From Bacillota bacterium (GTDB lineage: Bacteria; Bacillota; Bacilli; Alicyclobacillales; SLC66), in the NCBI GenBank assembly GCA_021821225.1, contig JAKACR010000008.1, forward strand, positions 1 through 26,552: 26,552 nucleotides of DNA. Direction: 5' to 3'. Each line of letters opens with the position of its first letter. Positions within the stretch are counted from its first letter, which is position 1. Position numbers and translations under genes: made by a program. Shown piece by piece: positions 6,750 through 26,024 of the stretch. The notes beneath the pieces are model-generated. The model saw nothing but the letters and a program-made list of their open reading frames with translations, ran no database searches and was not told the DNA's origin.

Positions 6750-6771
6750 CCGCCCAGCGCGTGTGGTCCTT

Positions 6772-6845
6772 CGGAGTTTAGCGCAGCTTGGTAGCGCGCC
6801 TGCCTTGGGAGCAGGAGGTCACAGGTTCAAATCCTGTAACTCCGA
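6772..6845 (+). tRNA. tRNA-Pro (anticodon TGG), integration target
   Basis: Acceptor CGGAGTT/AACTCCG, anticodon stem CCTGC/GCAGG with loop CTTGGGA, T-arm ACAGG/CCTGT; CCA is not encoded. From 6801 to its end the gene is identical to the copy at attR, so the 3' half was restored by the inserted element and the tRNA remains functional. This is the usual strategy of tyrosine-recombinase elements in tRNA genes. Confidence 0.95.
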
Positions 6846-6871
6846 TTCGTGAAAAGCCTTATACAGCAAGG
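6801..6871 (+). repeat. attL, 71-bp direct repeat
   Basis: It is identical to 25954-26024, with a constant offset of 19,153 bp. It begins in the anticodon stem of tRNA-Pro and runs 26 bp past the tRNA end. The flanking bases differ on both sides (c/t before, a/g after). Confidence 0.95.
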
Positions 6872-6956: not shown

Positions 6957-8117
6957 TCATGGGGCGAATACGTCCTCCAAAGCATCGGTCGCCACTTTCT
7001 GCATGCCCGGCTGGACGTGACTATAGGTTCCCAGTACCATCGTTACGCTGTTCCCCAATCGTTCGCTGACGATCTTGGGGTGCACGTTGTGTTTTAGCAA
7101 CAGGGTAGCGCATGTGTGGCGAAGATCATACAACCTGATATCGGACGGAAGTCCAGCTCGCTTCAGAAGCGGCTTAAAATGTCGGTGCACCACGTTTTGC
7201 TTGTCGAGCGGTTCGCCGTTTTGTGCAGCGAAGATAAAGTCATGATCCTTGTATTCGTCGCGATGCGCCATCCTGTATTCTCGTTGTACTGCCCGGTGTT
7301 GCCGCAGAATCTTGGCCGTGGATTCCGTGAGGGCCACACTCCGGCGACTGCCCGGCGTCTTGGGTTCCTTGACGCGCCATGTACCTCCTATGCGTTCGAG
7401 TGACTTGGTTATGCGCATCGTCTGGCAGTCGTTGTCCAAGTCCGACCACGCGAGCGCCAAGGCCTCCCCAGGTCGACAGCCAGCGTCAAGCATGAGTTTG
7501 AACAGAGGATAGTACGAACTGGCGTTCGCCATGTCCCAACTCTCCTTGGCCGTTTGAAGAAATGTCGCCACCTGCGTCTCGTCCATCGCGTGCATCTCGC
7601 GTGCCTTGCCTCGCGGGCGCTCGACGGCTTCCATCGGATTGAATTCGATCATGCGCAAGCGTACTGCGTGCTTCATCGCTTGCTTCAGGATCATCGTCGC
7701 GTATTGCGCCGTGCGGACGCCCGACTGTTGTTCGATGGCGCTAATGAGTTTTTGAAAGGTCATTGGATCATGTTGCAGTCTGGCGAGTTTCTTGTCGCCC
7801 AGGGCGGGGAACACAGCCCGATTCATTAGACCGGCGTAGTCGTTCCATGTGCGTTCCTGCACACGCTTTTTGGCGACTTCGTTCAGCCAATCCGTCAAGT
7901 AGGCCTGCAAGGTTTGTTTGCTTGGTTCGATCAAGTTCCCTTGATCGCGTTTTGTTTCGAGCGCTCGCGCCGCCTTCTCTGCGTCCTTCTTGCCACCCGT
8001 GATCGTATGATTCACGTACCGCCGTTTGCCATCTGCCCCCAGCCCGTCGAATATGCGGATCAACCATGTATCCTTGCCGTCAGCGCTCTTCTTCTTGCGC
8101 GCAATGATCTGTGCCAT
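6957..8117 (-). CDS. int: Tyrosine-family site-specific integrase
   Basis: This phage-type tyrosine recombinase of 386 residues carries out integration and excision at tRNA-Pro. It has an N-terminal arm-binding region (AQIIARKKK... YVNHTITGGKKDAEKA), a SAM-like core-binding domain, and a catalytic domain with CRPGEAL (R215), SRRSVAL, YDLRHTCATLL (R333) and GTYSHV with nucleophile Y365. Two usually conserved histidines are replaced: Tyr in the H-x-x-R position and Asn in the LGH position, substitutions tolerated in some family members. I chose ATG 8117 because GAGGGG lies 10 nt upstream; the in-frame ATG at 8147 would sit almost on the predicted transcript start. The gene faces attL, 85 bp away. 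Confidence 0.95.
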   Translation of the reverse strand: MAQIIARKKKSADGKDTWLIRIFDGLGADGKRRYVNHTITGGKKDAEKAARALETKRDQGNLIEPSKQTLQAYLTDWLNEVAKKRVQERTWNDYAGLMNRAVFPALGDKKLARLQHDPMTFQKLISAIEQQSGVRTAQYATMILKQAMKHAVRLRMIEFNPMEAVERPRGKAREMHAMDETQVATFLQTAKESWDMANASSYYPLFKLMLDAGCRPGEALALAWSDLDNDCQTMRITKSLERIGGTWRVKEPKTPGSRRSVALTESTAKILRQHRAVQREYRMAHRDEYKDHDFIFAAQNGEPLDKQNVVHRHFKPLLKRAGLPSDIRLYDLRHTCATLLLKHNVHPKIVSERLGNSVTMVLGTYSHVQPGMQKVATDALEDVFAP

Positions 8118-8155
8118 CGGTTTCGTCCCCTCATTCGTCCATCTCATCTATGCTT

Positions 8156-9711: not shown

Positions 9712-10764
9712 TCAGGCCCTCTGCAACTGCCGGAGCCGCGCCAAATCTTGAGCGATCTGTTTGCGCAACTCCATGATTTTCTTCCAGACGAAATTGCGCG
9801 AAGAACGTGAAGCCTCGCTCATGTACACCTCTTGAAAGAATTCGCGCAGGCTCCACAAAATGCGTCTGTCGGACCGGATCGACTCGTACAATTGCTCGAT
9901 CTCCGACCAGGTTTCGGCCACTTGATCGGTCGGTTCCTGCTGCCGCTCTTGCTCCGCCCTGGCCACTTCGTACTCGTCCTCGGTCTCGTCCAGCAGACGG
10001 CTCATCCCGGCTGTCGCCTCCGCGCGATCCGCGATCATCCGAAGGGCATTCGCGTGCCACTCTGCCGCATACGGACCGTTGTCATCGCCCCATATGGCGA
10101 GACGTTCCCACATCGCGTGCTCCGGCATGGAGAAGGCTTGCGCGAGTTCCGACAGGTCAGCTTTGGTGAATGTCGTCCGCCCTTTGAGCATCGGCTCCAG
10201 CAGATAGGTTGGTGCGAGCGCATAGAACGCGAAACGTTCGGCTTCCTCGTCCTGGTCGAGGCGCGCTCTATCCGCCATCCACATCTGATTGCCCTTGTGC
10301 AGCAGAATGTGCCCGATGCCACGGGCAATCGTGATGCGGCGTTCAGGGAGTGACAGAGCGGTTCCAATCCAGATGATGTACTCGTCTTCGCCCTTGCGGT
10401 ATCGGGTTGGGCCGTCGGAGCGAATCACCCGGATCGGCTTCTTGGGAGGGAACAACTCCACGTGCGTGGGCCCTTCCGCATACGAGGGGCCGCCCCTTCG
10501 CATGATCCGGAGTTTGCCGGTTATGACCTCCGGTTCAAAGACGGACAGGGATATATCTTCGGGGGACTGGAATCCATGCCGGCGGTACAGTTCTTCGATG
10601 CGAAGATCAAACGAGTGCGTGGCGCGGCTAAAACCGGATTCGGCATCATCTGCGACCGGCGGCCGCGCACCGCCCTGAGCCTTGATGTCTGTGAAGGCGC
10701 CGACGCTTCCCTCTTCCCAGTCCAGGTTTTCCCGTTGCGTTGCCTTCGGTTCTGTCATCGACAT
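9712..10764 (-). CDS. ImmA/IrrE-like protein with degenerate metalloprotease motif
   Basis: The 350-residue protein contains the core of the ImmA/IrrE family, whose active members cleave phage or ICE repressors after DNA damage. The segment ITIARGIGHILLHKG (about residues 144-158) aligns with the usual A-H-E-x-x-H-x-x-x-H helix, and DEEAERFAFYALAPTYLL aligns with the glutamate-ligand helix and LxxP. In place of H-E, however, there are Arg148 and Gly149; only His152 and the later Glu are kept. A long charged C-terminal helix follows. The start is ATG 10764 with GGGAGGA upstream. Its operon partners are the 10815-11250 genes, and a divergent HTH gene lies beyond, as in ImmR/ImmA arrangements. 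It is probably a non-catalytic regulator or pseudo-enzyme. Confidence 0.75.
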   Translation of the reverse strand: MSMTEPKATQRENLDWEEGSVGAFTDIKAQGGARPPVADDAESGFSRATHSFDLRIEELYRRHGFQSPEDISLSVFEPEVITGKLRIMRRGGPSYAEGPTHVELFPPKKPIRVIRSDGPTRYRKGEDEYIIWIGTALSLPERRITIARGIGHILLHKGNQMWMADRARLDQDEEAERFAFYALAPTYLLEPMLKGRTTFTKADLSELAQAFSMPEHAMWERLAIWGDDNGPYAAEWHANALRMIADRAEATAGMSRLLDETEDEYEVARAEQERQQEPTDQVAETWSEIEQLYESIRSDRRILWSLREFFQEVYMSEASRSSRNFVWKKIMELRKQIAQDLARLRQLQRA

Positions 10765-10814: not shown

Positions 10815-11012
10815 TCACGGCCTTTGCAGAACGCTGACCTCTCCATCCCGGCGATCCATCGCGACCTCGTTCTGAAGCGGGGATGCAGGTTCACCCGACA
10901 GCGCGCACAGCAGGCGCGACGATACGGCGTTCACCCGTTCCTCAAGCCACGCCATCTGTTCGCGAACATCTTGGTATACGATGTCCATGTTCGCCTGCTG
11001 ACTCTCATTCAT
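10815..11012 (-). CDS. Small element protein, 65 residues
   Basis: I placed the start at ATG 11012, which overlaps the TGA of the previous gene region (ATGAATGA at 11005-11012) and suggests translational coupling. The product MNESQQANMDIVYQDVREQM continues as an amphipathic helix to CALSGEP and resembles residues 16-48 of the 9071-9466 product. No known domain. The longer frame up to 11093 would overlap the upstream gene and has no ribosome binding site. Confidence 0.6.
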   Translation of the reverse strand: MNESQQANMDIVYQDVREQMAWLEERVNAVSSRLLCALSGEPASPLQNEVAMDRRDGEVSVLQRP

Positions 11013-11250
11013 GGTTGACCACCATGCCGGAAAGCGGAGCAAGTGCTTCGATTTCGATGAAGCGAACGATCTCCAGCAGATCCGCGAAGACATCGCGGGC
11101 GGAATAATCGGGAACCTCGATCATCTTGAAAGCCAATTCCGTCACCTTGTCGTAAATCGGCAGGATGTTGAGGTTTTCGTTCACGGAGGGCGCAAAATGC
11201 TCGTTGCAACCCAGTGCCTGCAGATCCGCTTCCTCAATCAGCGGCATCAT
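11005..11250 (-). CDS. Small acidic protein, 81 residues
   Basis: This is the first gene of the minus-strand regulatory operon. The ATG at 11250 (with a second ATG next to it) follows AAAGGAGG at ideal spacing; a TTG directly upstream could extend it by one residue. The sequence is acidic and helix-rich (MIEEAD..., YDKVTELAFKMIEV, DVFADLLEIVRFIEIEALAPL) with a single Cys. No family is recognised. Its place between a promoter facing the repressor-like gene and the ImmA-like gene suggests a regulatory or lysogeny role. Confidence 0.65.
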   Translation of the reverse strand: MMPLIEEADLQALGCNEHFAPSVNENLNILPIYDKVTELAFKMIEVPDYSARDVFADLLEIVRFIEIEALAPLSGMVVNHE

Positions 11251-11282
11251 CAATTCCTCCTTTCTTATCGTTTGTCTTGATT

Positions 11283-11312
11283 ACGATACGATAAAATAAT
11301 TGCTCTTGTCAA
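11283..11312 (-). promoter_or_regulatory. Promoter of the minus-strand regulatory operon
   Basis: On the minus strand TTGACA (11307-11312) and TATCGT (11283-11288) are 18 bp apart, with the ribosome binding site of the 81-residue gene about 25 bp further on. The region is AT-rich compared with its surroundings. Confidence 0.55.
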
Positions 11313-11351
11313 TATATATAGACGCAAAAGCTCATATAATGACTGCTTCGT

Positions 11352-11381
11352 TTTACATATGCGCTTGCCGTTGTGTATAAT
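11352..11381 (+). promoter_or_regulatory. Promoter of the HTH regulator operon
   Basis: TTTACA (11352-11357) and a perfect TATAAT (11376-11381) are 18 bp apart. Transcription would start near 11388, inside the palindrome at 11382-11394. Confidence 0.7.
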
Positions 11382-11394
11382 CCCCTTATAGGGG
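11382..11394. promoter_or_regulatory. Operator-like dyad at the transcription start
   Basis: CCCCTtatAGGGG has 5-bp arms and sits directly after the -10 box, a classic place for repressor autoregulation by the HTH protein encoded immediately downstream. Confidence 0.5.
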
Positions 11395-11402
11395 TGATGT
11401 TC

Positions 11403-11639
11403 ATGGTGAGCACGATCGAAATCGACATGAAAGATACCGACATCAAGACGGCTATCCGTCAAATGATCGCCAAGTCTGGCGTCAGAAGTCTCGCCTCGGT
11501 TGCTCGAGATATGGGAATCAACGAGGCCACCTTGCGCGTGGCCGTGAATAATGGTCAAATCCGAGTAAAGGATTTCCTGCGCATCGCGGAACTGTGCGGG
11601 TTCCAGGTGGTTGTGAGAGGCGGGGGTGTTAAAGCATGA
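11403..11639 (+). CDS. Small helix-turn-helix regulator (Cro/repressor-like)
   Basis: A 78-residue protein with a helix-turn-helix at about residues 29-50 (SLASVARDMGINEATLRVAVNN), followed by a strand-like IAELCGFQVVVRGG tail that could dimerise. This resembles short phage regulators and addiction antitoxin-like DNA-binding proteins. ATG 11403 is preceded by AGGGGTGAT at about 5 nt; earlier in-frame Mets would lie upstream of, or directly on, that motif. The dyad at the transcription start is a likely self-operator. The ATGA overlap at 11636-11639 couples it to the membrane protein downstream. Confidence 0.75.
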   Translation: MVSTIEIDMKDTDIKTAIRQMIAKSGVRSLASVARDMGINEATLRVAVNNGQIRVKDFLRIAELCGFQVVVRGGGVKA

Positions 11640-12001
11640 CAAGGCGTGCAGTAACCTTGGTGGGGATCGGTGGAGCGGCCTTTCTGGCCGCGCGTTCGAT
11701 GCTTTGGACATCAGGCATTGCCGGTCTGGCCGTCGCGCCCGATGCACACGCGGCAACCGTTGGATTCGGGCTGGCGTTTCTCTTCTTGGTGGGCGGCGCG
11801 TTTGCCCTGGAGAAACCGCTTGTGTCCGCAATCGCATTCCTTTTGGCGTTTCTCTACGGGGCCATCACCACAACTGCGGCCCAGTGGTCGCTCATGCTGG
11901 TTCTGTGGCCGCTTGTGGCGGTCGGCCTTGGAATCCTCAGTGCATTAAATCTAAGTGACGTGGTCGAGCGTGTGCAGGACAACGGCGGTGCCAAGTCGTG
12001 A
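11636..12001 (+). CDS. Small polytopic membrane protein, 121 residues
   Basis: The start codon overlaps the stop of the HTH gene (ATGA). About four hydrophobic segments are visible: roughly residues 5-25, 40-58, 61-80 and 84-106, ending in a charged tail (DVVERVQDNGGAKS). No family is recognised. A holin-like or superinfection-exclusion role is possible for a membrane protein co-expressed with a repressor, but no motif supports a choice. Confidence 0.65.
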   Translation: MTRRAVTLVGIGGAAFLAARSMLWTSGIAGLAVAPDAHAATVGFGLAFLFLVGGAFALEKPLVSAIAFLLAFLYGAITTTAAQWSLMLVLWPLVAVGLGILSALNLSDVVERVQDNGGAKS

Positions 12002-12052
12002 CCGGGGCCGGGATTTGTGTCGCGGTGAGAAGCGGGAAAGGGGAGACGTGAA

Positions 12053-12319
12053 ATGGGATTCCTGTGGTGGCTTATCGGGCTTATTGTCTCCATCGTCTTG
12101 AACAGGCGCATGGCTGCGTCGAAAGGGCGTAGAAAGTGGCTCTGGACGCTATGGGCTGTCTTGATCGGACTTTTTAGCACGATCCTGTTGCTGGTGTTTC
12201 CAACGAAAAAGCCCATGAAGACATGCCCGTTATGTACGCTGACCATTCCGGCTGGAGCGATCCGCTGCCCGAAGTGCCAAGGGGACCTGCGCGATGTTCA
12301 GGGGGGTGCTGAACTTTGA
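12053..12319 (+). CDS. Membrane-anchored zinc-ribbon protein, 88 residues
   Basis: ATG 12053 follows GGGGAG at good spacing. There are two predicted membrane segments (FLWWLIGLIVSIVL and LWTLWAVLIGLFSTILLLVF), then a cytosolic zinc ribbon, CPLC-x11-CPKC, near the C-terminus. It is the last protein-coding gene before the long structured region and is probably co-transcribed with the HTH and membrane genes. Function unknown; zinc-ribbon/TM proteins of this size are common superinfection or envelope-associated accessories. Confidence 0.65.
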   Translation: MGFLWWLIGLIVSIVLNRRMAASKGRRKWLWTLWAVLIGLFSTILLLVFPTKKPMKTCPLCTLTIPAGAIRCPKCQGDLRDVQGGAEL

Positions 12320-12329
12320 GCGCCCATTG

Positions 12330-13195
12330 GCTTCGATGGATCGTTGGCGCGCTGGCTGCGCAGGATCGCCTGTGAGCCGCGTTTGTGGCGTGGATGGCGG
12401 GAGTTTATGCCAAGCACATCTTGCGCGGCTCCTGCGGCATCCCTGCGCGTCTGGCGCGCCCTCAGTTGAATTGAGGGCTGCGGGGAAATGGGAGTTATCG
12501 CGGCTTCGTTGCCGTGAAGGGGACTCAGCAATTTTGCTGAGGGGCTGTGTTCAAGGCGGACCCTTTGCGCGGCTGCCGGTATCGTCACACTGACCGACGA
12601 CTCAAAATTGAGCGGTGAGAATTCCGTGCGCGTGGACGTGTCGCTCGCAAACTGACTCGGCAAAATTGCCGAGTCAGAATGCGCACCCTAGATTCAATCG
12701 AGGGCTCCTGCGTTTTCGCCAGTGAAGAGGGACGTCAGGCACGGTGCGGGGTATTGACGGTGACAAGCCCCTTGCGAAGGGAATGGGCGTGCAGGACCCC
12801 GCGGGAGCTGCGTGACAGTTCGGGTAAAGCGACGGGGAGACAAACGCACAGCGAAGGTTCACGGGGCATCCCTGCGCGTCTGGCGGGGGTGAACTGAACC
12901 GAGGCGCAGGGGCGTTGCCGTGATTGTCACCATGAACGTGAATCAGCGATTTTTCTGGGGGCTATCAATGCAGCAGGCCCCTTGGGATGTGGTGCGACGG
13001 CCGCATCGGCTGCTAGTAGTCTTCGAGTGCTAATTGACCCGATTGGCACTGGTGGGAAGAGGATCCGCGCGCTGACTCCGTATTAATCGGTTAGTCATCG
13101 TGCGGCGGACCGGGGATTCACGCGGAACGCGACTCCCCGGTCGGAGGGTGCGGACCGGGGGACACATAAGCAGGCGTCGGTTGAGGAGACGCCCT
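12330..13195 (+). ncRNA. Candidate large structured noncoding RNA (ornate phage-RNA type)
   Basis: About 880 bp have no frame with a ribosome binding site or coding character, but contain a dense set of long stems. These include 12374-12381/12424-12431 (8 bp), 12441-12446/12480-12485, 12459-12464/12472-12477, 12511-12521/12561-12573, 12524-12541 (8-bp arms) and 12652-12677 (12-bp arms). Further along are 12686-12704, 12746-12752/12796-12802 (7 bp), 12870-12877/12904-12911 (8 bp), 13026-13034/13042-13050 (9 bp), 13108-13116/13134-13142 (9 bp) and 13173-13193. G-U pairs in two stems would be A-C mismatches on the other strand, favouring plus-strand RNA. Size, location in a phage-like element and multi-stem nature recall the GOLLD and ROOL classes; I cannot confirm membership without a covariance search. 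Confidence 0.5.
12436..12885 (+). repeat. Duplicated 21-nt module inside the structured region
   Basis: The string GGCATCCCTGCG-CGTCTGGCG occurs exactly at 12436-12456 and 12865-12885, offset 429 nt. In each copy the CCCTGC part closes a stem, but with different partner sequences (12480-12485 and 12904-12911). Confidence 0.75.
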
Positions 13196-13211
13196 TACTA
13201 CAGGTCTACTT

Positions 13212-13934
13212 TCACGCGCTGGACGCCATTAGAAACGCATCTGTGGTGTGCTTCACCACGCTGGAGAGAGACACCTTCAAGGGGTTGTCTGGATCGGACG
13301 TCTGATCGAATTGCAGGACCGAAACGCGGACCGTGTTTTGCGCCCGCAGAAGTTCCGCCACGGCCCAACTGTAGTACGCTGGTACATACCCCAGTTTGAT
13401 GGACTCATTGTACAACACCAAGACAGCATTATGGTCAAATGGGTTGGTGGATTCCTGTTCCAGCAACAGGGTGACGTTGGAACGCAAGTACGCTTTTACG
13501 GACTCACCCTCGTAATAGCGCCACCCCGCGACGATAAAGTCGATGTTCAGACACCCGTCATGTAAAATGATGGGGGCTACGAATTCATATGTGTCCGTCG
13601 CCAACCGACCTCCGGTAGCCGACAGAAGATCCATCGGCGTATGATCCCTGGACAATCCGATCCGTTTTAGAATATCCAAAAAGTCCGGCCTGGAACGGTC
13701 TGGCAAACGGCGCGAAAAGGCCGCAAACAGCTCGCGGGCATGGTACGTTTTGTCGGTATCCGGGAACACCAAATGCAGCCGGTATCCGTCCGCCAAGGCA
13801 TCCGGAAGCGTCCGAGGGCCGTGTTTCTCATACGCGAATTGATATCCCTGTTCCACGTGTCTCAGAGTGCCCACGTGATAGCGTTGCCGTGAACGCGGGT
13901 TTTGCCAGATTAACCAAAGTTCATATGCGCCCAT
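13212..13934 (-). CDS. HipA N-terminal-like plus HIRAN-domain protein
   Basis: A 240-residue protein. Residues 1-120 resemble the HipA N-terminal subdomain (ELWLIWQNPRSRQRYHVGTL... YQFAYEKHG, then a loosely matching segment). Residues 131-215 match a HIRAN domain (VAGWRYYEG, LLLEQESTNPFDHNAVLVLYNESIKLGYVP), which in other proteins binds DNA 3' ends or stalled forks. It starts 4 bp after the kinase gene stop, so translation is probably coupled. In HipBST-type systems a separate HipA-N-like protein acts as antitoxin of the kinase; by analogy this could be the neutralising or targeting subunit. The family call is good, the role is inference. Confidence 0.8.
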   Translation of the reverse strand: MGAYELWLIWQNPRSRQRYHVGTLRHVEQGYQFAYEKHGPRTLPDALADGYRLHLVFPDTDKTYHARELFAAFSRRLPDRSRPDFLDILKRIGLSRDHTPMDLLSATGGRLATDTYEFVAPIILHDGCLNIDFIVAGWRYYEGESVKAYLRSNVTLLLEQESTNPFDHNAVLVLYNESIKLGYVPAYYSWAVAELLRAQNTVRVSVLQFDQTSDPDNPLKVSLSSVVKHTTDAFLMASSA

Positions 13935-13938
13935 AGCG

Positions 13939-14805
13939 TCAAGTCTGCCCCTTCCACCAGTCGATCAACCACGTTTGTCTGAGAGAAAGAAGCTTGCAGG
14001 TAAATTCCTTTCGTTTCTCACTCATGAGATCGTCGGGTATATCGTTTACCGCAGCGCGAGAGTGCTCTGTTCGCATACTCGCCACACGTTCAATCCATGG
14101 CTTCAGGTCTGCTTCGTGTCTCTTCCGGATGTGCGAAAGGAGTGCCAAAAATTTCGGCTTCTCAGCGCCCGGCAGGCCAATCATGGATTTCCCCTGACGC
14201 ATGAATCCAGTCGTCCTCTGCTTGTCTCGAAAGAAAGAATCCAAGGCGGATTCGGGGATCAAATGTCCCAATGAGCACCCGCTATCATACAGAGGCGCCA
14301 AGCGGTACGATCCATTCGCGTCGCGTATTACGCCCCAGTTGTCGCAATGGCGGTCCTGGTTTGCAACCAACGCGTCAAACACGGGAATGCTCAGGAAGTC
14401 GCGGTCCAATTCCACCGTCTCAAGTGCAGTCAGAATGGCACCGATGTCGTAGCCCGCCAGTCGCGACCGATCGAACTCCGCATTGGAAAGACTGAGTAGG
14501 TCTCCACCTTGAAACAATTCTTCCGAGAGGGACACGAAATTCTCGGATAATGAGCCAAGTTGTCTATTGTACACCGCGATCTTTGTGTTCGCCGTGTCAA
14601 AGCCCAACCGCCTCCCGAGCGCGCAAGTCACCTGCTCGCCCCAAGCCTCCCCGGTATTGTCTTTTGGAATTTTGAACAGGGCACGCGTACCGGTTCCCGG
14701 TTCCATCAACCATAACTTACGTCTAATGCCGGGCGCTTGAGTGAATTCATCACTCGTCCAATCAGAAACGTCGGGGATATCTAGAGAACGCGAATTTTCG
14801 TCCAT
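13939..14805 (-). CDS. HipA-like serine/threonine kinase
   Basis: A 288-residue protein with the HipA kinase core: ATP-contact Lys in LFKIPK (K45), the GEAWGEQVTCALGRRLG helix, catalytic loop FDALVANQDRHCDNWGV (D151, N156) and the metal-binding motif LAPLYDSGCSLG (D174). E. coli HipA phosphorylates glutamyl-tRNA synthetase and halts translation; related HipT acts on tryptophanyl-tRNA synthetase. It lacks the HipA N-terminal subdomain, which is encoded by the next gene with a HIRAN domain. ATG 14805 has GGTGA 5 nt upstream. No HipB-like repressor gene is adjacent. It is likely a toxin or defence kinase carried by the element. Confidence 0.85.
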   Translation of the reverse strand: MDENSRSLDIPDVSDWTSDEFTQAPGIRRKLWLMEPGTGTRALFKIPKDNTGEAWGEQVTCALGRRLGFDTANTKIAVYNRQLGSLSENFVSLSEELFQGGDLLSLSNAEFDRSRLAGYDIGAILTALETVELDRDFLSIPVFDALVANQDRHCDNWGVIRDANGSYRLAPLYDSGCSLGHLIPESALDSFFRDKQRTTGFMRQGKSMIGLPGAEKPKFLALLSHIRKRHEADLKPWIERVASMRTEHSRAAVNDIPDDLMSEKRKEFTCKLLSLRQTWLIDWWKGQT

Positions 14806-15265: not shown

Positions 15266-17827
15266 CTACCTATACGGCCCACGCGTAGCCGACTGCGCAT
15301 GCGCGGCTTGTGCGATCCGATCTTGTTTCTGCGCCTGTCTGTGGTTCGTGAGAGAGGCGTCGATAGCTTTCTTCACGCCGCTGACGAGTTCATTGACGAT
15401 GGCCTGGACATCACTGCCGTACGCGCTGGCCTGTGCAGGCGTCGGGCTGCCCGTGTAGCCTTCGGATGCGAGTGCTGAGAAGATCGACTTTGCTGATGCA
15501 CCGTGTCGCGCTAAGTCCAATGCGTGCCCATACCGTAGCTTTCCGTTGGGCAGACGTTCCAACAGTACCTGCGTGTCGGCTTGTGCAAATTGGGCGAGTG
15601 ACGAGAAAGACGCATGTTTGCCGTATGGTCCGGTCTTCTGGTAGGCTCCAAAGGTGTGCAGCCCCCCTAAATTGTGATCGACCAGAGCCGCGTGTGAGGT
15701 GCCCCATGTACTTTCATGCGCCCATTGCGCAATCAAATCGGCGGCCGGAATCCCCGTTGCCTTCGACACCTTCACGGCGTAGGGGAGCATGCTGCCGGCT
15801 CCCGCATGCCCGGCGTTTAGCGCGGTATTGATCAGGCTGGCCTGACCGCCGACGAACGAACTAATGGTTTTCGGCAGATGGGAGAAGAATGGGGCAATCC
15901 CTGTGAATCCCTTGAGCACGCCGCCCTCAAGTTGGTCGATGAACGTGGTCACGATGGCGCCTGTCTGCCCGAGTTTCGCGGCCTGCGCTGCTTTTTGCGC
16001 CGCCGCGATTGCATGTTTATCCGCTTGAGTCAGCGGGATTGCCAGGGGGGCGCTTGGAACTTTAAGCGCAGGAGCATTTAACGCGCCGCTCTTGATGACG
16101 GCCATTCCCTGATTGATATCAAGGCCGGGCATAAGCGCCGCCTGAAGGTATTTGTTCGGCGAGATCTTCTTGACCATGTTCAGATAGGCAGCCCCGTACG
16201 TCGTTTTCGTCCCAGGAATCAATGCGGCGGTGCCCTGCTCCAGGATGCTCATCATTTGAAACGGGTTGGTGATCTTGCCACCACTCGCCTTCATAATCGC
16301 AGAGAACCCGAGGAGTTGCTGAATACCCTTGGCGTTTGCAAAACCTTGATCCATCTGAGAAACAAGTTGTGCTCCGCGCATGCCTTGCAGCCCCTGAATA
16401 CCGGAGGCGTTCATCGCCGCATATTGCCCTGCTACGCCCGTCGGGTTACTGATGACGGGATTGATACTCGCCAGCGTGCCGTAGACACTCGCGAGTCCTG
16501 TAAAGAGCGGGCCTTGACGTCCTTGCATATGCGAGACTTGCGCAAGTTGCGTCAGCATCCGATTCCCGGCATACGGGGTGAGTGTCGAACCTTTGCCTGA
16601 TGTGACGCCGAGGGTCCCAAGTGTCGTCATCAGTTGCGTTTGTTGCTGATCCGACAAGCCATTCGCCATCGCGAATTGGGCGGCTTGGCCTGTCAAATTT
16701 GCCACCGATGCGTTGTTGCCGCCGAACGCCTGTGCCATGGCTTGCGCCGATTGAAGCGCGGTAGTTGCCGTTACACCGAACGCGGCAGCCGCCTTCTGGA
16801 TGCTCAAGTTCAGGATGTTCGCACCCTGACCGACCGTTCCCAGACTGTGCGCGAGTTGTGAAGATGTCGGCGCGGTTTGTTGCCACGTCGCATAGCCAGA
16901 GGCGAACCCATCGGCGATCGTCTTCGTCGCCAACAGTACAGCCGCCGCCGGGACTGCCGCCGCACCCACCGCCGCCAGGCCGCCGTCCGCCATCATCCCC
17001 GCAGCACCGCCGCCAAGCAAGCCGGGCGATCCGCCGACCGCCATATCGGTCAGCGTTCCTCTTGCGGCTCCGCGCAAGCCAGACCCTAGAACAGACCCGA
17101 TGCTGTTCCCTTTTGCCGATCGCGCGAAATGACCGAGAAACGACGTGCGTTGCCCCGTCACGGGCGGCTGGTTCGCTTCGCTGGACAGCCGCTGATAGGC
17201 CGTGCGCCCTGCTCCCGTCTCGCCCTGCTGGTACGAGCTGTACGCGCCCGCCAATTCTTCCGCGACCGACGAGCCGACCATGGACCGGATATCCGGTTGA
17301 TTCGCGCGCGCCAGCCAGTCGCCGTACCACTGCGAGGAACCGGGATACGCGCGTGAGCGCAGGTGTCCGCCGAGAACCGGGACCATGCCGGGCACGTTTT
17401 GCGGGGACTGTGCGGCTTGTGAGCGGGATCTGCCAGGCGACGGACCGCTCCCGGAAGACGGACGCATGGCGTTGAGCATGGGGAGTGCCTGCGCGAGCAC
17501 GTTGTCGTAATACTCGATGACGCCGCCTTGCGTGTTCAGGTTGTACTGCGGCTTGTGACCGCCTTGACCGCGAGGTCCGGGGCCTTGTGCGACACCGCTC
17601 CACCCGGCATTCTGCGCGCCCCCGGCGGAGGATCGCGGACCCGTTGGCGGATCCGAACCGCCGCCGACCGCCATCTGCCCATTTTGCACCTGCGGCATCG
17701 CGCCAAAGCCGATCTTCTGCATGCTCGCGCCGACTTCTTTGACATGCGCATGCAGTTTGTCGAGTGCCGCTTCGAGGTCGTGGAAGCCCTTGAGGTCGGC
17801 CGAGGTGGAAAAGCGGATTTCAGCCAT
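15266..17827 (-). CDS. Tape-measure-like protein with C-terminal glucosaminidase domain
   Basis: An 853-residue protein. The N-terminus has a short coiled-coil-like stretch (DLEAALDKLHAHVKEVGASMQKIG), then Gly/Pro/Ser/Gln-rich linker sequence. The long middle is Ala/Gly/Gln-rich and helical with a hydrophobic segment (about residues 275-300), as in tail tape measure proteins. About residues 680-800 resemble FlgJ/LytG-type glucosaminidases: LIAQWAHESTWGTSHAALVDHNLGG, with the probable catalytic Glu in HEST. Such domains locally open peptidoglycan during DNA entry. ATG 17827 has GGGAGG upstream and overlaps the preceding gene by 8 bp. No other recognisable tail or head genes are present, which is unusual. 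Confidence 0.75.
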   Translation of the reverse strand: MAEIRFSTSADLKGFHDLEAALDKLHAHVKEVGASMQKIGFGAMPQVQNGQMAVGGGSDPPTGPRSSAGGAQNAGWSGVAQGPGPRGQGGHKPQYNLNTQGGVIEYYDNVLAQALPMLNAMRPSSGSGPSPGRSRSQAAQSPQNVPGMVPVLGGHLRSRAYPGSSQWYGDWLARANQPDIRSMVGSSVAEELAGAYSSYQQGETGAGRTAYQRLSSEANQPPVTGQRTSFLGHFARSAKGNSIGSVLGSGLRGAARGTLTDMAVGGSPGLLGGGAAGMMADGGLAAVGAAAVPAAAVLLATKTIADGFASGYATWQQTAPTSSQLAHSLGTVGQGANILNLSIQKAAAAFGVTATTALQSAQAMAQAFGGNNASVANLTGQAAQFAMANGLSDQQQTQLMTTLGTLGVTSGKGSTLTPYAGNRMLTQLAQVSHMQGRQGPLFTGLASVYGTLASINPVISNPTGVAGQYAAMNASGIQGLQGMRGAQLVSQMDQGFANAKGIQQLLGFSAIMKASGGKITNPFQMMSILEQGTAALIPGTKTTYGAAYLNMVKKISPNKYLQAALMPGLDINQGMAVIKSGALNAPALKVPSAPLAIPLTQADKHAIAAAQKAAQAAKLGQTGAIVTTFIDQLEGGVLKGFTGIAPFFSHLPKTISSFVGGQASLINTALNAGHAGAGSMLPYAVKVSKATGIPAADLIAQWAHESTWGTSHAALVDHNLGGLHTFGAYQKTGPYGKHASFSSLAQFAQADTQVLLERLPNGKLRYGHALDLARHGASAKSIFSALASEGYTGSPTPAQASAYGSDVQAIVNELVSGVKKAIDASLTNHRQAQKQDRIAQAAHAQSATRGPYR

Positions 17828-18221: not shown

Positions 18222-18495
18222 GGTGGACGCCTCCTCTTGATTCGCGGGCCTTCACAATCAGCCAATCTTGCAGACCCGGGTCACGCTCCAACATCTTGTG
18301 AACTAGCTCTTGAAACTCAGCCTCGGATCGTGGCGCGGTTCGCCTGGGGAACTCTGTTCTGAGCCACTTCTTCAACGACGGGTCGCGCTCCAGCATCTCA
18401 TGGATGATGTGTTGTGTGTGCTCTTCCGTTGCGCCGGTCCGATGCAATGCGCTCTCCAATTTCGCGATTCGCTGTTCGAGTTTTTCTGTCGCCAT
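18214..18495 (-). CDS. Small protein with a duplicated HxMLERDPxLxxWL motif
   Basis: ATG 18495 overlaps the upstream stop (TGATG) and follows GGAGGG by 7 nt; a GTG one codon earlier is also in frame. The 93-residue protein begins with a coiled-coil-like heptad (KLEQRIAKLESAL). It then has two copies of a 14-residue motif, HEMLERDPSLKKWL and HKMLERDPGLQDWL, with 10 identical positions, separated by a Pro/Arg linker. No family is recognised. Confidence 0.65.
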   Translation of the reverse strand: MATEKLEQRIAKLESALHRTGATEEHTQHIIHEMLERDPSLKKWLRTEFPRRTAPRSEAEFQELVHKMLERDPGLQDWLIVKARESRGGVHHA

Positions 18496-18899
18496 CACGA
18501 AACCCTCCCCGTATTTTGTGCTGTCAGTAGTTGTTCAAGCGCCGCCACTCGCGCCGCCAACTCTTCAACCTCAGCCGCCTTGACCGCCATATCCAACGCG
18601 GCTCGCGCTGCCGACACACGGGCGCCAGCCTGAGCCTCCGCGTCCGCCATCACGTCTCGCAGCGTTTCGACCGCTTGCCCGCTTATTGCTGACAGTCTGC
18701 CGATGGCTTGTTGCAAGGCGGCATGCTTTGCCGCACGGTACGCCGACTGGAACTCCGCGTCTTCGCGAACCCACCGATAAAGCGTGGTCAACCCGACACC
18801 TGACGCCCTGGCCGCTTCGTGAATGGTCGGACATTCCAGCAATGCGGCGACCGCCAATTCGCGGCGTCTGTCGCGCTTTTCGTTCACCCTTCTTGCCAC
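18495..18899 (-). CDS. Helix-turn-helix protein, small-terminase-like (phBC6A51-type)
   Basis: A 134-residue protein with a basic N-terminus and a homeodomain-like HTH at about residues 18-45 (LLECPTIHEAARASGVGLTTLYRWVRED). A long Ala-rich helical C-terminus ends in a coiled coil (EVEELAARVAALEQLL). This arrangement, with AEFQSAYRAAKHAALQQAIGRL after the HTH, is common in Bacillota phages and is often annotated as a terminase-small-subunit-like or phBC6A51-type HTH protein. The start is GTG 18899 with GAGGTG upstream. In a satellite it could redirect packaging. No large terminase follows. Confidence 0.7.
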   Translation of the reverse strand: MARRVNEKRDRRRELAVAALLECPTIHEAARASGVGLTTLYRWVREDAEFQSAYRAAKHAALQQAIGRLSAISGQAVETLRDVMADAEAQAGARVSAARAALDMAVKAAEVEELAARVAALEQLLTAQNTGRVS

Positions 18900-18911
18900 C
18901 TCAACCCACCT

Positions 18912-19205
18912 CTATCCATTTGCGTCGCTGCCTGCCGTCAGTTCGCGCCACTTCTCCAGCGGTACAACGATCAGCCACGGTCGCCGATCCGCTTTGAGCG
19001 CCAGTGCATCGCTGCCGTCCAACCACGCATACAGTTGCTTGAACCCGTCCGCCCGCGCCTTACACTCAAACCGCAGCCCCTGTGCCTCCACGTCACCCGA
19101 AAAACTTCCGCCCGCCGCACCCGAAAGGGGGACGCGTTCTCCACCCATCAGTTTGGCGAACTCCCGTTCGGCGCGCAATCCTTTGTCACGTTGCGACTTA
19201 CCCAT
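18912..19205 (-). CDS. Holliday-junction-resolvase-like PD-(D/E)xK nuclease
   Basis: A 97-residue protein with the Hjc/phage Hjr pattern: a basic N-terminus with GLRAEREFAKLMGG (Glu of the first helix), then SGDVEAQGLRFECKARADG, giving the catalytic D...E-x-K, then KQLYAWLDGSDALALKADRRPWLIVVPL. Such enzymes cut four-way DNA junctions during replication or packaging. ATG 19205 is preceded by GGAGGTG. It sits in the replication operon next to the helicase genes, which fits a recombination-linked role. Confidence 0.75.
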   Translation of the reverse strand: MGKSQRDKGLRAEREFAKLMGGERVPLSGAAGGSFSGDVEAQGLRFECKARADGFKQLYAWLDGSDALALKADRRPWLIVVPLEKWRELTAGSDANG

Positions 19206-19643: not shown

Positions 19644-19936
19644 GCGTTCACCCTCTTTCGCATGATGGGGACTACTTTGCGCCATCGGATGATCGCCGAG
19701 TGTGCATCCCGTAGGTCGTCCGTCAGACTAATCAACGTCATGAGTTCGGCCGGCGCATCTGGCGTCTGTGCAATCAAAGACGCGAACCGCTCCAGGCAAT
19801 CCGCCGTCTGTGTGAAGAGCGCGGGGAGTTCTCGCCAGGCTCCGTGGCGTTCTTCGCGCGTGGTCGCCTGCGTTAATTCCTGTAGGCGGTCTCTCACGTC
19901 TGCCATCTCGCGGGCTGCGTCCGAGAATGCGCTCAT
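19640..19936 (-). CDS. Uncharacterised helical protein, 98 residues
   Basis: ATG 19936 follows GGAGGTGA at ideal spacing and overlaps the helicase stop by 4 bp. The protein is almost entirely helical and charged (DAAREMADVRDRLQELTQ, LTDDLRDAHSAIIRWRKVVPIMRKR), with no recognised domain. It is translationally coupled on both sides to the helicase and HAD genes. Confidence 0.65.
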   Translation of the reverse strand: MSAFSDAAREMADVRDRLQELTQATTREERHGAWRELPALFTQTADCLERFASLIAQTPDAPAELMTLISLTDDLRDAHSAIIRWRKVVPIMRKRVNA

Positions 19937-21357
19937 ACGTTCACCTCCATTCCCAACTTGCGGTAAACGTCTCTGCGCCGCCAGAATTGCCCGCGCAGCA
20001 TCGGACTGCCGGAGTCCCAGAAGTCCCACACCGCCGCGGCCATCTTATCCTGTGCCGGTCGCATGATCCGTCCAACCTCTTGCTCGGTCGCTCCCGCCGC
20101 GCGCTTCGGACAGACCGAGAACAATTGATCCAAATGAACGATGTCCAACCCTTCGCGTGCCAGTTGGGTGGCGAATAGCACATCCACCCGGCGCTCCTGA
20201 ACGTCCTTCATGACACGGGCGCGCTCCCGCTTCGGCATTTGCCCTGTGAGCGTTGCAAGGCGCAGGGCGGGGGATTGTGCCTCCAGCATCGCGCGAAGCG
20301 TCTGCAGGTGTTCCACGCGCTCAGAGAGTACCAACGAGTAATGCCCTACCGTATTTGAGGCGATCGTGTCCACGATCAGGCGATTGCGCGGTTCGTCTTG
20401 CGTCAGACGTGTGAGCAGCGTCGAGTAGTCGTCGTCCACACCGCCGAATGCCGTCTCGACAACGTGGAGTGTCGGCGTGATGGTCTGCAAGCGCGAGCGG
20501 TCAATCTGATGCAGAATCGGACCACCAACCGCGTACAAGATCGGATGCAACCCATCCTGCCGTTCTGGTGTTGCAGACAACCACAGGCGATAGCGAGCAG
20601 GGAAGGCACCAAACACCTGGCGAAAGGTGGTGGCGGGGCAGTGCTGGGACTCGTCGAGCATCACCAGCCCGAGCCGTTCCCGGATGTCCGTTAGGTCACG
20701 TTTGGCTAAGGTCTGCACCAGTCCGACTGTCAAGCGGTCGCCGACCCGCCATTGTCCGTCGCCCAACATACCAATCTCGTCACGCTCGGTATCGAGGAAC
20801 TGCGCGGCGCGTTCGACCCACTGCAAGGCGAGTTCGCGTGTATGCACCAGCACCAATGCAGGCTGTCCGGCGCGGGCGATGATCTCCAGTCCCATCGTCG
20901 TCTTGCCCGATCCGCACGGGGCAGCGAGGCCACCCGCCAGCATCTGCACAAGGCGTTCCACCGCCAACACCTGATACGGTCGGAGTGTGATTCGCGAATG
21001 AAACTCGACAGGTGGCAGCGTCAGCCTGTGATCATCCATCGCCCACTGCACTCCATGCTCGCGGAAGCGGCGCAGGAGCGTTTGCCCATAGCCGCGGGGC
21101 AGGGTGAGGGTATCGCCTTCTACCGCCCACATGGTCAATCGTTGCGGGATATTGCCCACGTAGCGTCCCATGCGCACAGCGGACGTATAGGCCGGGTTGG
21201 GGATGGTCAGATCCCCCAGGGTGATCTCCAGAAGGGGTGGCGGGATCGAATTTACCGGGATGCGGATGTTAGCGTCTATCGTTAGGTGTATACTGTTGCT
21301 CTCAGCCGCTTTGATCGTGCCGCCCATGGCCTGTGGGCGGTCTATTGTTGTCTGCAC
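19933..21357 (-). CDS. Superfamily 2 DNA/RNA helicase (XPB/UvsW-like)
   Basis: A 474-residue SF2 helicase: Walker A APCGSGKTT (about 146-154), motif Ia LVHTRELALQW, DEAD-type box LDESQH (about 234-239), motif III LSATPERQDG, and C-terminal helicase motifs V and VI (FATQLAREGLDIV, EQEVGRIMRPAQ). About 120 residues precede the RecA core. It probably unwinds or remodels replication or recombination intermediates of the element. The start is GTG 21357 with GGAGGGGG 7 nt upstream, next to the preceding stop. It is part of a tightly overlapping replication operon. Confidence 0.9.
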   Translation of the reverse strand: MQTTIDRPQAMGGTIKAAESNSIHLTIDANIRIPVNSIPPPLLEITLGDLTIPNPAYTSAVRMGRYVGNIPQRLTMWAVEGDTLTLPRGYGQTLLRRFREHGVQWAMDDHRLTLPPVEFHSRITLRPYQVLAVERLVQMLAGGLAAPCGSGKTTMGLEIIARAGQPALVLVHTRELALQWVERAAQFLDTERDEIGMLGDGQWRVGDRLTVGLVQTLAKRDLTDIRERLGLVMLDESQHCPATTFRQVFGAFPARYRLWLSATPERQDGLHPILYAVGGPILHQIDRSRLQTITPTLHVVETAFGGVDDDYSTLLTRLTQDEPRNRLIVDTIASNTVGHYSLVLSERVEHLQTLRAMLEAQSPALRLATLTGQMPKRERARVMKDVQERRVDVLFATQLAREGLDIVHLDQLFSVCPKRAAGATEQEVGRIMRPAQDKMAAAVWDFWDSGSPMLRGQFWRRRDVYRKLGMEVNV

Positions 21358-21917: not shown

Positions 21918-23270
21918 TCAAAACACCTCCACGGCAGGCTTGGGAGTTTCCAGTTCTGCGGACGTTTCATCATCGTCACGTTTTGGCTTGGCGATGTTGC
22001 GATCTTGACAGTAAAGCCGCGCCACGGCAGGGTTTTCTGCCTCTCTAGGAAGATCGCCATTGGCGATGTTCTTTTCCGCTCCAGAAAGTCCGTCTAGCCG
22101 CGCCGTTACAGGGTTTTCAGGGAACATCGCAACATCGCCAACGTTTCCCCCTATAGGGCGTGGCGGTGTTAATTCCGCCGATGCGGGCGGCGGCAATTTC
22201 CAGTACCACTCCTTTCCGCGTTTCTCACTGCGTACCGCTAAGTCTTTCTTGCCCCGTTCGAGCGTTCGACGCTTGATACCGGATGCCGCTGCATTTTCGT
22301 AGATGATAGTTGCTGCTAATTCTTTTCCATTTAGCGCGTCACGCAGGAACTGCGTGGCCACGTCGAGCGCGCTGTCCTCTTCGGTCGCTTGATGCCCCGA
22401 AAACATCCGACTGCCGCTTAATTCAGGCGCCTCCCCGTTCCATTCAAACTGGCCGTCACTCAAGGTGTAAGCGATTGGGGAAGCCTTGGCTGCCATGCTC
22501 GCTTTGACGTGGACGACGCCGCGGCGATTGGGGTTATCCGGGTCTTCGCCAACCATCAATATCGACCGAGACACCCCGGCGATGTCGATACTGCCGAGTC
22601 CTCTGTACATCAGGTTATCCCCACTCGCTTTCCGCATATGACGGACCAGAAGGACCGCGCACTTTTGGCGACTGGCGAGTTGCGCCAGTGGTGCGAGAAC
22701 AGCCCGTGTTTCGTTTGCCCGGTGCATGTCGGTGCCAGATCCGAGATGCGCCTGAATGGGGTCGATGATCAGCAGGCGGTATTGCTTGGTCGCAAGCGCC
22801 GCCTCGATCTCTGGAAGATGCCGAGACAGGTCGACCGCGCGCTCGCCGTCGTATTCTGTCACAGCTTCAATGATATCGACCCGGCTCCGATCAGCCCCGA
22901 CTGCGATCAAACGCGGAACTATCGTCTCGGCTATTCCGTCTTCAGCCCCGATTAGCAACACGTCGCCCACCGCCGGGCTTACCTCTTGTCCAGGTAGCGT
23001 CAAGCCTTTAGTGACGGCTGCGGCCAGCGCCAGCGTTAGCCAGGACTTACCGACACCGGGGTCGCCGTCGATCAATGTCAGGTACCCTAGGGGAATTCGC
23101 GGCCACCAAAGCCAAGAAACACGGGCCGGTTCGATATCGCCCAGATTCTTTATTTTGAGCGTGGCAGCAGGTGGCAGGATGTTTGCGTCTCGCATGGTGC
23201 CGTTCACTTTTGCAGTCTTCTTCGCCATTTTTCGGGCGAATGCTTGTTCTTCCGGCGTCAGATCAGCCAC
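21918..23270 (-). CDS. RecA-like AAA ATPase (RepA/AAA_25 helicase family)
   Basis: A 450-residue RecA-fold ATPase of the plasmid RepA / phage DnaB-like type. It has Walker A GDPGVGKSW (K75), LLIGAEDG, Walker B RLLIIDPIQAHL (D170), and a sensor-like LLVRHMRKASGDNLMYRGLGSIDIAG. The C-terminal part has a winged-helix-like segment (AATIIYENAAASGIKRRTLERGKKDL), then a low-complexity tail with an imperfect repeat (ENPVTARLDGLSGAEKNIA, ENPAVARLYCQDRNIA). It likely works as the replicative helicase with the adjacent primase-polymerase; the two genes overlap by 8 bp. Confidence 0.88.
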   Translation of the reverse strand: MADLTPEEQAFARKMAKKTAKVNGTMRDANILPPAATLKIKNLGDIEPARVSWLWWPRIPLGYLTLIDGDPGVGKSWLTLALAAAVTKGLTLPGQEVSPAVGDVLLIGAEDGIAETIVPRLIAVGADRSRVDIIEAVTEYDGERAVDLSRHLPEIEAALATKQYRLLIIDPIQAHLGSGTDMHRANETRAVLAPLAQLASRQKCAVLLVRHMRKASGDNLMYRGLGSIDIAGVSRSILMVGEDPDNPNRRGVVHVKASMAAKASPIAYTLSDGQFEWNGEAPELSGSRMFSGHQATEEDSALDVATQFLRDALNGKELAATIIYENAAASGIKRRTLERGKKDLAVRSEKRGKEWYWKLPPPASAELTPPRPIGGNVGDVAMFPENPVTARLDGLSGAEKNIANGDLPREAENPAVARLYCQDRNIAKPKRDDDETSAELETPKPAVEVF

Positions 23271-24186
23271 TTTTCCGGGCCTCCATCCGCAAAACAGAAG
23301 TCAAGACGTCGCGTAGAATTCGTTGCGGTAGGGGGGTGGCATTGTCGGCATTCCAATGACTCATGAATTGGCGTGCAACGTATACGTCGACGCCGTGTGC
23401 AATGAGCATCCCGTACAGCGCCACCGCTGCGCGATTGCGCTCATCGGACAGCCCAGCTTCTGACCATGTGCGCAACTGCTCCAGCCGGGGGTCGCCTTGC
23501 ACCATCCGCGCCCGTCCGCCATCCATGGACGGTCCCCGAGCGCCAATCCTCCGCCGTAGCTCATCCTGCATCCAGCCCGGCATTTCGGCGACCGGGGAGC
23601 GGTCGATGACGTGGTACCGTCTGCCGCTTGCGTGCATGCTGCCGGGGCCAGTCACGGTCTTTGTCAGTAGTTCGACGCCGTCCGTGACATCCGCATGTTG
23701 CGTCAGCCAGTCGGGCCGCACGTAAAACAATTGAAAGCCGCCGCCACCCGACTCGACTGTAAATGTCGCGTCCACCTGGTGGCCGCCAGTGATCTGTCGC
23801 CACTCTGCAGGCCCATCCTGCCCCTCACGATGCCGGTCCAGGTCGATGCCGCAGTTTCCCGACAGATCTAGCCGCAGACCGTAATTCGGATCGAGGATGG
23901 GACGTGTAAATTTAAGCCAATCCTCGTAACCCATCTCATCGCCGGAATAGGTGACCGCCGACCAAGATTCGCCGTGCGTGTGTTTCCCGGGGTGGGGGCA
24001 ATCTGCGCCTTTTGGACAGGCACATGTGCCGTTCAAGACGCCCCATTGGAGCATAACCGGCCAGCCGCGCCCAACGGTGGCAGAGTGGACGTAGCGGTCG
24101 ATTTCGCGCTCGAAGCGTGGTATGATGTCTATAGAGTTTTTCTCGGTTGTAGCCACTCCCGCCGGAGTGGCTTCTTTGTTGTCCAT
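23263..24186 (-). CDS. Bifunctional primase-polymerase (Prim-Pol, PF09250-like)
   Basis: A 307-residue protein with the Prim-Pol N-terminal domain. WPVMLQWGVLNGTCACPKGADCPHPGKHTHG (written here in parts: WPVMLQWGV, then CACPKGADCPHPGKH) carries the Cys/His cluster; NYGLRLDLSGNCGIDLDRH holds the catalytic Asp pair (about D115/D117); SGGGGFQLFY follows. These enzymes prime and can extend DNA in plasmids, phages and satellites. I chose ATG 24186 with AAAGGAG 8 nt upstream over the longer frame to 24246. It pairs with the downstream RecA-like ATPase, an arrangement typical of element-encoded replication initiators. Confidence 0.9.
   Translation of the reverse strand: MDNKEATPAGVATTEKNSIDIIPRFEREIDRYVHSATVGRGWPVMLQWGVLNGTCACPKGADCPHPGKHTHGESWSAVTYSGDEMGYEDWLKFTRPILDPNYGLRLDLSGNCGIDLDRHREGQDGPAEWRQITGGHQVDATFTVESGGGGFQLFYVRPDWLTQHADVTDGVELLTKTVTGPGSMHASGRRYHVIDRSPVAEMPGWMQDELRRRIGARGPSMDGGRARMVQGDPRLEQLRTWSEAGLSDERNRAAVALYGMLIAHGVDVYVARQFMSHWNADNATPLPQRILRDVLTSVLRMEARKSG
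24152..24180 (+). terminator. Terminator-like hairpin, plus orientation, inside the primase-polymerase start
   Basis: GCCACTCC (24152-24159) and GGAGTGGC (24164-24171) form a perfect 8-bp stem with loop CGCC, followed by TTCTTTGTTG. It faces against the gene it lies in and encodes its EATPAGVATT segment. Confidence 0.45.
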
Positions 24187-24342
24187 TTGCAAGGCTCCTT
24201 TCGTGATGCCGTTCCGGCGGCGTCCTACCGCTCCGACTCGCCGCAATCTCCTCCGGCTGGCCCGCTATATCGCGCGGTGCCTGTTGCGTGCGCCCGGCGG
24301 CGCGTAGTTTGCGATTGTCAAAGATTGTTCTCCGGCTCTTTC

Positions 24343-24546: not shown

Positions 24547-24597
24547 GTTTCCGCCTCCTTCTATTCGTCTCGCCTCGTATCATATCGTCAAAAACCG

Positions 24598-24606
24598 TGT
24601 TATGAT
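24598..24606 (+). promoter_or_regulatory. Extended -10 promoter of the zinc-finger gene
   Basis: TGTTATGAT (TG-n-TATGAT) is an extended -10 element about 45 bp before the ATG at 24650. No good -35 box is visible, as is common for extended -10 promoters. Confidence 0.4.
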
Positions 24607-24649
24607 GCATGGACATAGGGGTACACTTTGGGTACGGGAGGGTGATTTA

Positions 24650-25953: not shown

Positions 25954-26024
25954 TGCCTTGGGAGCAGGAGGTCACAGGTTCAAATCCTGTAACTCCGATT
26001 CGTGAAAAGCCTTATACAGCAAGG
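25954..26024 (+). repeat. attR, 71-bp direct repeat (3' tRNA-Pro fragment)
   Basis: Identical to attL. Bases 25954-25998 are the 3' 45 nt of tRNA-Pro without its 5' half, so this copy is not a functional tRNA; the remaining 26 bp are the original sequence downstream of the tRNA. Confidence 0.95.

Follow-up and report, generated by a model that had tools for sequence, protein, structure and literature searches.

A gene-free, strongly folding block in a satellite-like integrated element of a Bacillota bacterium: a candidate orphan large RNA

Between a cro-side operon and a hipIN-type gene pair, an integrated element of a Bacillota bacterium carries a block of about 880 bp that has no coding signal in any of the six frames and folds more strongly than expected by chance. 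We consider it roughly an even bet (probability about 0.5) that the cro-side operon ends in an orphan RNA, large and structured, which this block represents. All positions refer to the window, i.e., the whole stretch of 26,552 nucleotides that was analysed (contig JAKACR010000008.1).

The block and its element

A perfect direct repeat of 71 bp, the two copies of which are 19,153 bp apart, defines the att borders of the element. The following features are relevant:

6801..6871, attL, first copy of the 71-bp repeat, overlapping the 3' part of tRNA-Pro(TGG) (6771-6846)
6957..8147, minus strand, tyrosine integrase (Phage_integrase E 6e-22; phrog_1 E 3.8e-69)
9712-10764, IrrE/ImmA-like protease inside the element
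11352..11381, plus strand, promoter-like TTTACA-18-TATAAT (11/12 matches), start of the cro-side operon
11373..11639, plus strand, small HTH/Cro-like regulator (phrog_4583 transcriptional repressor, E 1.7e-4)
11636..12001, plus strand, 121-aa hydrophobic protein
12053..12319, plus strand, 88-aa membrane/zinc-ribbon-like protein, immediately 5' of the block
12320..13211, probably plus strand, gene-free structured block and candidate RNA (codon model, hairpin counts, fold z-scores)
13212..13934, minus strand, HipN-like putative antitoxin, HipS-like (Couple_hipA) plus HIRAN (PDC-M03B E 7.2e-85)
13939..14805, minus strand, HipI-like kinase, HipA_C (PDC-M03A E 8.6e-89)
15266-17827, minus strand, 853-aa protein with a C-terminal glucosaminidase domain
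18495-18899, terminase-small-like protein
18912-19205, RusA-like resolvase
19933-21357, helicase
21918-23270, AAA ATPase
23263-24246, Prim-Pol
24343-24546, excisionase-like HTH protein
25954..26024, attR, second copy of the 71-bp repeat, 19,153 bp from attL

With its own integrase, att repeats, Prim-Pol, helicase and a terminase-small-like gene the element looks satellite-like, and the presence of the Prim-Pol and helicase genes suggests that it replicates itself. Capsid, portal and large terminase were not found among the element ORFs scanned, a set that leaves out some small ORFs. The phage-like setting proposed in the first-pass annotation is supported by the position of the block inside a bounded integrated element of 19,153 bp.

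The block is limited by the stop of the upstream ORF (12053-12319) at 12319 and by the end of the minus-strand hipN gene at 13212. A codon model, in which each of the 24 listed genes has its highest score in the gene's own frame, gave -0.080 to -0.217 bits per codon for 12320-13200 with 6-14 stops per frame, and this applies to all six frames. Furthermore, the six ORFs in or across the block had no PHROG match at E<=1, and the single Pfam match (E 0.067) fell below the cut-off. Negative codon scores, stops and the lack of a family match above cut-off led us to reject a protein product, and the earlier description of a gene-free stretch of about 880 bp holds.

Some observations on the neighbouring genes may be added. 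For the regulator at 11373-11639 the start assigned by the tool is a GTG, and an ATG at 11403 behind a GGGGTG-like site looks likelier by eye. The protein search with the 121-aa protein returned a single entry, which matches the query exactly and apparently stems from the window's own contig, and the relatives of the 88-aa protein in the protein collection form one cluster at 97% identity. The 853-aa protein is without PHROG match and perhaps tape-measure-like; other virion genes were not found in the element. An ORF of 367 aa at 24407-25510 (plus strand), which has no Pfam, PHROG or PADLOC match and ends in a cysteine-rich basic tail, overlaps or converges on the excisionase-like gene.

The "convergent toxin-like pair" of the first-pass annotation is indeed present 3' of the block, and its identity can be refined to a hipIN-type kinase/HipS-HIRAN module (PADLOC defence candidate PDC-M03; HipA_C E 4.1e-11, Couple_hipA E 1.9e-5, HIRAN E 5.6e-12). 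The hipIN toxin-antitoxin family has the same order, a kinase gene and after it a gene for a HipS-like part plus HIRAN, as described in the available part of PMC8262856. Here, however, the pair is only a neighbour of the block: four hipIN-type loci (L003-L005 from phages and L010 from IMG/VR, the latter being the one hipN locus with an alignment) contain no DNA similar to the block and no Rfam RNA. In tectiviral-type phages of Vibrio and in the Clostridioides phage phiCDKH02 the same pair adjoins the integrase. Upstream of the HipA-type gene of phiCDKH02 are about 620 bp in which no gene is annotated (L003, 2473-3091); this gap has neither an Rfam match nor similarity to the block. A literature search on PDC-M03/hipIN yielded only unrelated papers among the matches listed.

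HipN occurs widely, with 183 proteins at E<=1e-8; among the best 120 of these, the nearest named relatives are mostly Bacilli. A 98% identical HipN is assigned in NCBI to an Armatimonadota MAG; the tRNA cluster of the window, which matches Clostridioides, Paenibacillus, Niallia and other Bacillota (best 20 of 47 plasmid records), and the remaining HipN relatives with a name speak for Bacillota, which makes a host from this phylum probable. The Armatimonadota label may reflect a mislabelled MAG or a widely moving element. This HipN lies on a contig of 8,261 nt, the 97% relative of the 88-aa protein on one of 1,640 nt, and a further HipN of 72% identity on a contig of 57 kb.

Folding strength, predicted structure and strand

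The folding of the block exceeds chance on both strands. The 890 nt at 12320-13209 reach a minimum free energy of -417.6 kcal/mol on the plus strand (dinucleotide shuffles -377.4, sd 8.3; z -4.85) and of -351.9 kcal/mol on the minus strand (shuffles -308.1, sd 7.2; z -6.10), and none of the 60 shuffles per strand was as low in either case. Eighteen other 890-nt segments of the element (12 shuffles each) gave z-scores from -2.6 to +1.5 on the plus and from -1.4 to +2.0 on the minus strand. A comparison of 150-nt segments revealed a mean z of -1.64 (plus) and -1.62 (minus) in the block (n=15) versus -0.03 and -0.02 elsewhere (n=357), and the minimum of the 900-nt running mean in the element falls on the block for both strands. 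The signal is uneven: 7/15 plus and 6/15 minus segments of the block have z < -2, with strong values at 12350-12500, 12550-12800 and 13000-13200 and values near 0 for segments starting at 12500 and 12700-12750.

A density of at least twelve stems had been noted before and is borne out by 12 plus-strand hairpins of at least 7 bp with G-U allowed, a number reached by 2 of 150 shuffles (mean 7.69). Watson-Crick hairpins of at least 8 bp occur three times (shuffle mean 0.17, maximum 1). Helices of at least 10 bp at any distance are not enriched, as the 29 on the plus strand are reached by 80 of 200 shuffles. Both nested stems described earlier can be read directly: GCCG..AAGGG / CCCTT..CGGC encloses 12524-12541, and GCGGGG / CCCCGC encloses CCCTTGCGAAGGG. 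In the plus-strand ensemble 424 of the 890 positions are paired with a probability > 0.5, and the predicted elements are:

12346..12460, plus strand, long imperfect hairpin of 115 nt with blunt GGCGCGC/GCGCGCC ends (-71.3 kcal/mol; z -4.50 plus, -5.87 minus)
12421..12437, plus strand, 5' arm of a 17-bp helix (4 G-U), pairing with 12799-12815
12498-12517, plus strand, predicted hairpin
12524..12541, plus strand, palindromic hairpin CTCAGC-AATTTT-GCTGAG
12590-12760, 12908-12982 and 12986-13007, plus strand, predicted domains
12652..12677, plus strand, palindromic hairpin CTGACTCGGC-AAAATT-GCCGAGTCAG, loop complementary to the loop of 12524-12541
12799..12815, plus strand, 3' arm of the 17-bp long-range helix, pairing with 12421-12437
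13026..13050, plus strand, 11-bp hairpin with two G-U pairs, plus-only (13020-13056: z -4.44 plus, -0.27 minus)
13065..13144, plus strand, two strong adjoining hairpins, 13065-13105 and 13106-13144 (13060-13147: z -3.64 plus, -5.50 minus)

The 17-bp helix is the longest on the plus strand (length reached in 5/200 shuffles), is prolonged by 12443-12452/12785-12794 and encloses a domain of 390 nt. It is mutually exclusive with the 115-nt hairpin because bases are shared. The 38-nt stem 12646-12683, which contains the palindromic hairpin 12652-12677, has a DNA z of -9.05. The loop AATTTT (12530-12535) is complementary to the loop AAAATT (12662-12667), and a single compensatory exchange (A-T to G-C) distinguishes the stems of the two palindromic hairpins; these points are read from the sequence and are not statistical evidence.

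For the candidate transcript the plus strand is likelier, because GC skew, the promoter-like site at 11352, the plus-only hairpin 13026-13050 and an excess of long plus-strand hairpins point in this direction. In detail, the GC skew is +0.15 to +0.17 over the block, as in the plus-strand genes upstream; past the block, in the minus-strand genes, it drops to around 0 or lower. Among strong promoter-like sites, the one at 11352 alone faces the block (three promoter-like sites in 11000-14000, 1.6 expected), and the block is in line with the operon that starts there, so that the proposed continuation of this operon is borne out for the direction. Hairpins of at least 9 bp number six on the plus versus one on the minus strand, a difference reached by 1/150 shuffles; this excess depends on the cut-off, since at other limits it is reached by 70/150 (at least 7 bp), 15/150 (at least 8 bp) and 20/150 (at least 10 bp). 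The plus-minus energy difference of the block is the same as in shuffles (z 0.43), i.e., energy picks no strand, and for this reason the earlier argument from G-U pairs in two stems is weak, with the hairpin 13026-13050 as the part that speaks for a plus transcript. On the minus strand, too, the longest helix is unusual (16 bp, 1/200 shuffles). Inside the block no promoter-like or terminator-like site and no T-run terminator was found; the only terminator-like site before or in the block lies inside gene 11636-12001.

Internal duplication and search for relatives

The block contains an imperfect internal duplication:

12414..12565, plus strand, repeat copy A (approximate alignment range)
12846..12989, plus strand, repeat copy B (approximate alignment range)
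12436..12456 (in A) and 12865..12885 (in B), plus strand, 21-nt motif, copies identical

The A-B alignment scores 82, with a maximum of 41 among 300 shuffles. Fifteen piece-against-piece comparisons were made, four overlapping pairs (A-D, A-0, D-C, B-T) were dropped, and among the 11 kept only A-B is clear, with A-C (p 0.013) and D-T (p 0.033) being weak. The two copies have no consensus fold beyond chance, as 95 of 200 column-shuffled alignments fold equally well. This rules out the duplication as support for structure and points to a sequence motif instead of a conserved fold. There is also no codon periodicity between the copies (16, 17 and 17 mismatches by phase in the longest gap-free piece). 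It is possible that the 21-nt motif, identical in otherwise diverged copies, is a protein-binding or recombination motif. Operators repeated along the element were considered and rejected: the main palindrome occurs nowhere else, and a looser pattern has two matches outside the block, which is chance level.

GOLLD, ROOL, OLE and HEARO are families in Rfam. At gathering score, cmscan with 4,227 Rfam families returned six tRNAs for the window as a whole and nothing else. At E<=5 the region 12200-13300 gave three weak sub-threshold matches, two of them to plant-type miRNA models (E 2-3). A match of isrO on the minus strand (25.1 bits versus a cut-off of 42; E 0.0061) lies over the strongest hairpin and was taken as chance. 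As none of the four large RNA families appeared at E<=5 over 12200-13300, the suggested likeness to GOLLD and ROOL found no support in this check, and the block is not recognisably GOLLD, ROOL, OLE or HEARO.

The block is an orphan in the searches made: blastn against phages and plasmids, and short block patterns against viral and genome contigs, gave no homologue. In blastn, phages gave nothing and plasmids eight records with short matches only (3-6% of the query, E 0.3-0.9). Block patterns of 22 and 17 bases had no match in viral contigs; a 16-base pattern led to 21 viral loci, in which every match to the block includes the seed and nhmmer found no match (best locus L014, 38 nt, 84%, E 3e-4). 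The sole genome-contig match of the 22-base pattern, in Actinoallomurus, is taken as chance because it lies in an open frame and similarity does not extend beyond the repeat motif. Matches of 25 nt and 36 nt (89%) among 31 actinobacterial-type genomes were likewise dismissed as chance, being in G+C-rich open frames, and a viral locus with a 15-residue match to a neighbour of the block was judged unrelated. The regions 13212-13934 (alone), 21918-23270 and 19933-21357 had no relatives in viral contigs. An antisense search with the block revealed no significant target in the window, and the best match outside the block on either strand is 26 nt (E 0.83).

A candidate RNA and its alternatives

If the block is a structured RNA, it would be a plus-strand product that closes the cro-side operon starting at the promoter-like site 11352, and this operon, as in such elements, would be switched on upon relief of the lysogeny repressor. 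The RNA would accumulate stably and fold into several domains, with either the long-range helix 12421-12437/12799-12815 or, alternatively, the hairpin 12346-12460, and with further domains at 12590-12760, 12908-12982, 12986-13007, 13026-13050 and 13065-13144. It may act in trans during induction in a structural or oligomeric role, as proposed for GOLLD and ROOL, and oligomerisation could perhaps proceed through the mutually complementary loops. We favour this reading because of the whole-block z-scores, the lowest running mean of the element, the lack of a coding signal, the alignment with the operon and the GC skew, together with the plus-only hairpin, the plus hairpins of at least 9 bp and a precedent in Vibrio satellites (PMC7567579, available part). 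It is weakened by the lack of a homologue and of a fold common to A and B, the energy difference that selects no strand and the middle part with z near 0, and also by the lack of promoter- or terminator-like sites in the block, the 16-bp minus-strand helix and the cut-off dependence of the plus excess.

As far as covered by the available part of PMC12286853, the block shares with GOLLD and ROOL the length class (ROOL env-120 has 659 nt, many GOLLD RNAs exceed 800 nt), the prophage or phage setting, the lack of a protein and several stable domains. Loops kiss in these RNAs, and the loops 12530-12535 and 12662-12667 could do so as well. The block differs from them in having no Rfam match, and the tRNA genes here are host genes at the att site, with no array beside the block. 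Noncoding RNAs make up the most abundant transcripts both of PLE, satellites found in Vibrio, and of ICP1, their helper phage; one of them (ICP1) has about 800 nt and lies in an ORF-less space of 1 kb (PMC7567579, same part). The PLE inter-inverted-repeat (IIR) and ICP1 transcripts are comparable to the block as noncoding sequences between gene clusters of a satellite or helper phage. In contrast, RNA-seq exists for those transcripts, and the PLE transcript has antisense homology to leaders of PLE genes (PMC7567579), whereas the block has no significant match on either strand in the rest of the window.

The main rival is a region that acts in cis at the DNA level, with the palindromes and the 21-nt motif as sites where element proteins would bind or carry out processing (replication enhancer, packaging, regulation). 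The fold signal is equal on both strands, as expected of DNA palindromes, the palindromes 12524-12541 and 12652-12677 are near-perfect, A and B are imperfect direct repeats with an identical core, and the element with its Prim-Pol and helicase seems to be self-replicating. The crr region of satellite P4, which has two imperfect repeats, would be comparable to A and B in this case. However, the CTCRGCAAWWTTGCYGAG palindrome is unique in the window even at 3 mismatches, the block is about 7-11 kb away from the replication genes, the G-U pairs make the hairpin 13026-13050 plus-only and the GC skew is plus-strand-like, so that we regard a DNA site as unlikely.

Decayed sequence, i.e., functionless remains of genes or duplicated mobile DNA with the palindromes as relics, would account for an imperfect duplication with indels, for the lack of a homologue and for the seemingly reduced gene content of the element. 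One would not expect relics to form the best-folding 890 nt of the element, though, and there is no codon signal and no codon periodicity between A and B, which makes decay improbable in our view. We think even less of a long untranslated spacer, a 3' UTR belonging either to the plus-strand cro-side operon or to the minus-strand hipIN genes, in which the hairpins only insulate, protect or end transcripts. Such a spacer would fit the location right between two converging transcription units, the strong hairpins of either strand and a hairpin (13172-13194) about 20 nt past the hipN stop, but 880 bp is long for the terminator region of a compact element, T-run terminators were not found and long-range helices are not needed.

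Going beyond the orphan RNA preferred here, the block might represent a new class of large ornate RNAs of phage satellites that is made from the early operon, assembled through self-complementary or mutually complementary loops, AAUUUU (12530-12535) and AAAAUU (12662-12667), and able to adopt two alternative folds, with either the 115-nt hairpin or the long-range helix. We give this extended proposal a small chance; if true, such RNAs extend beyond GOLLD and ROOL. Where phages and satellites have been measured for large noncoding RNAs, these are abundant, but they fall into a small number of recognised classes, whose roles are not settled. As a compact and well-bounded satellite-like element, in which a single exceptional noncoding block separates a regulatory operon from a hipIN module of the defence type, the present case would make a small and directly testable system.
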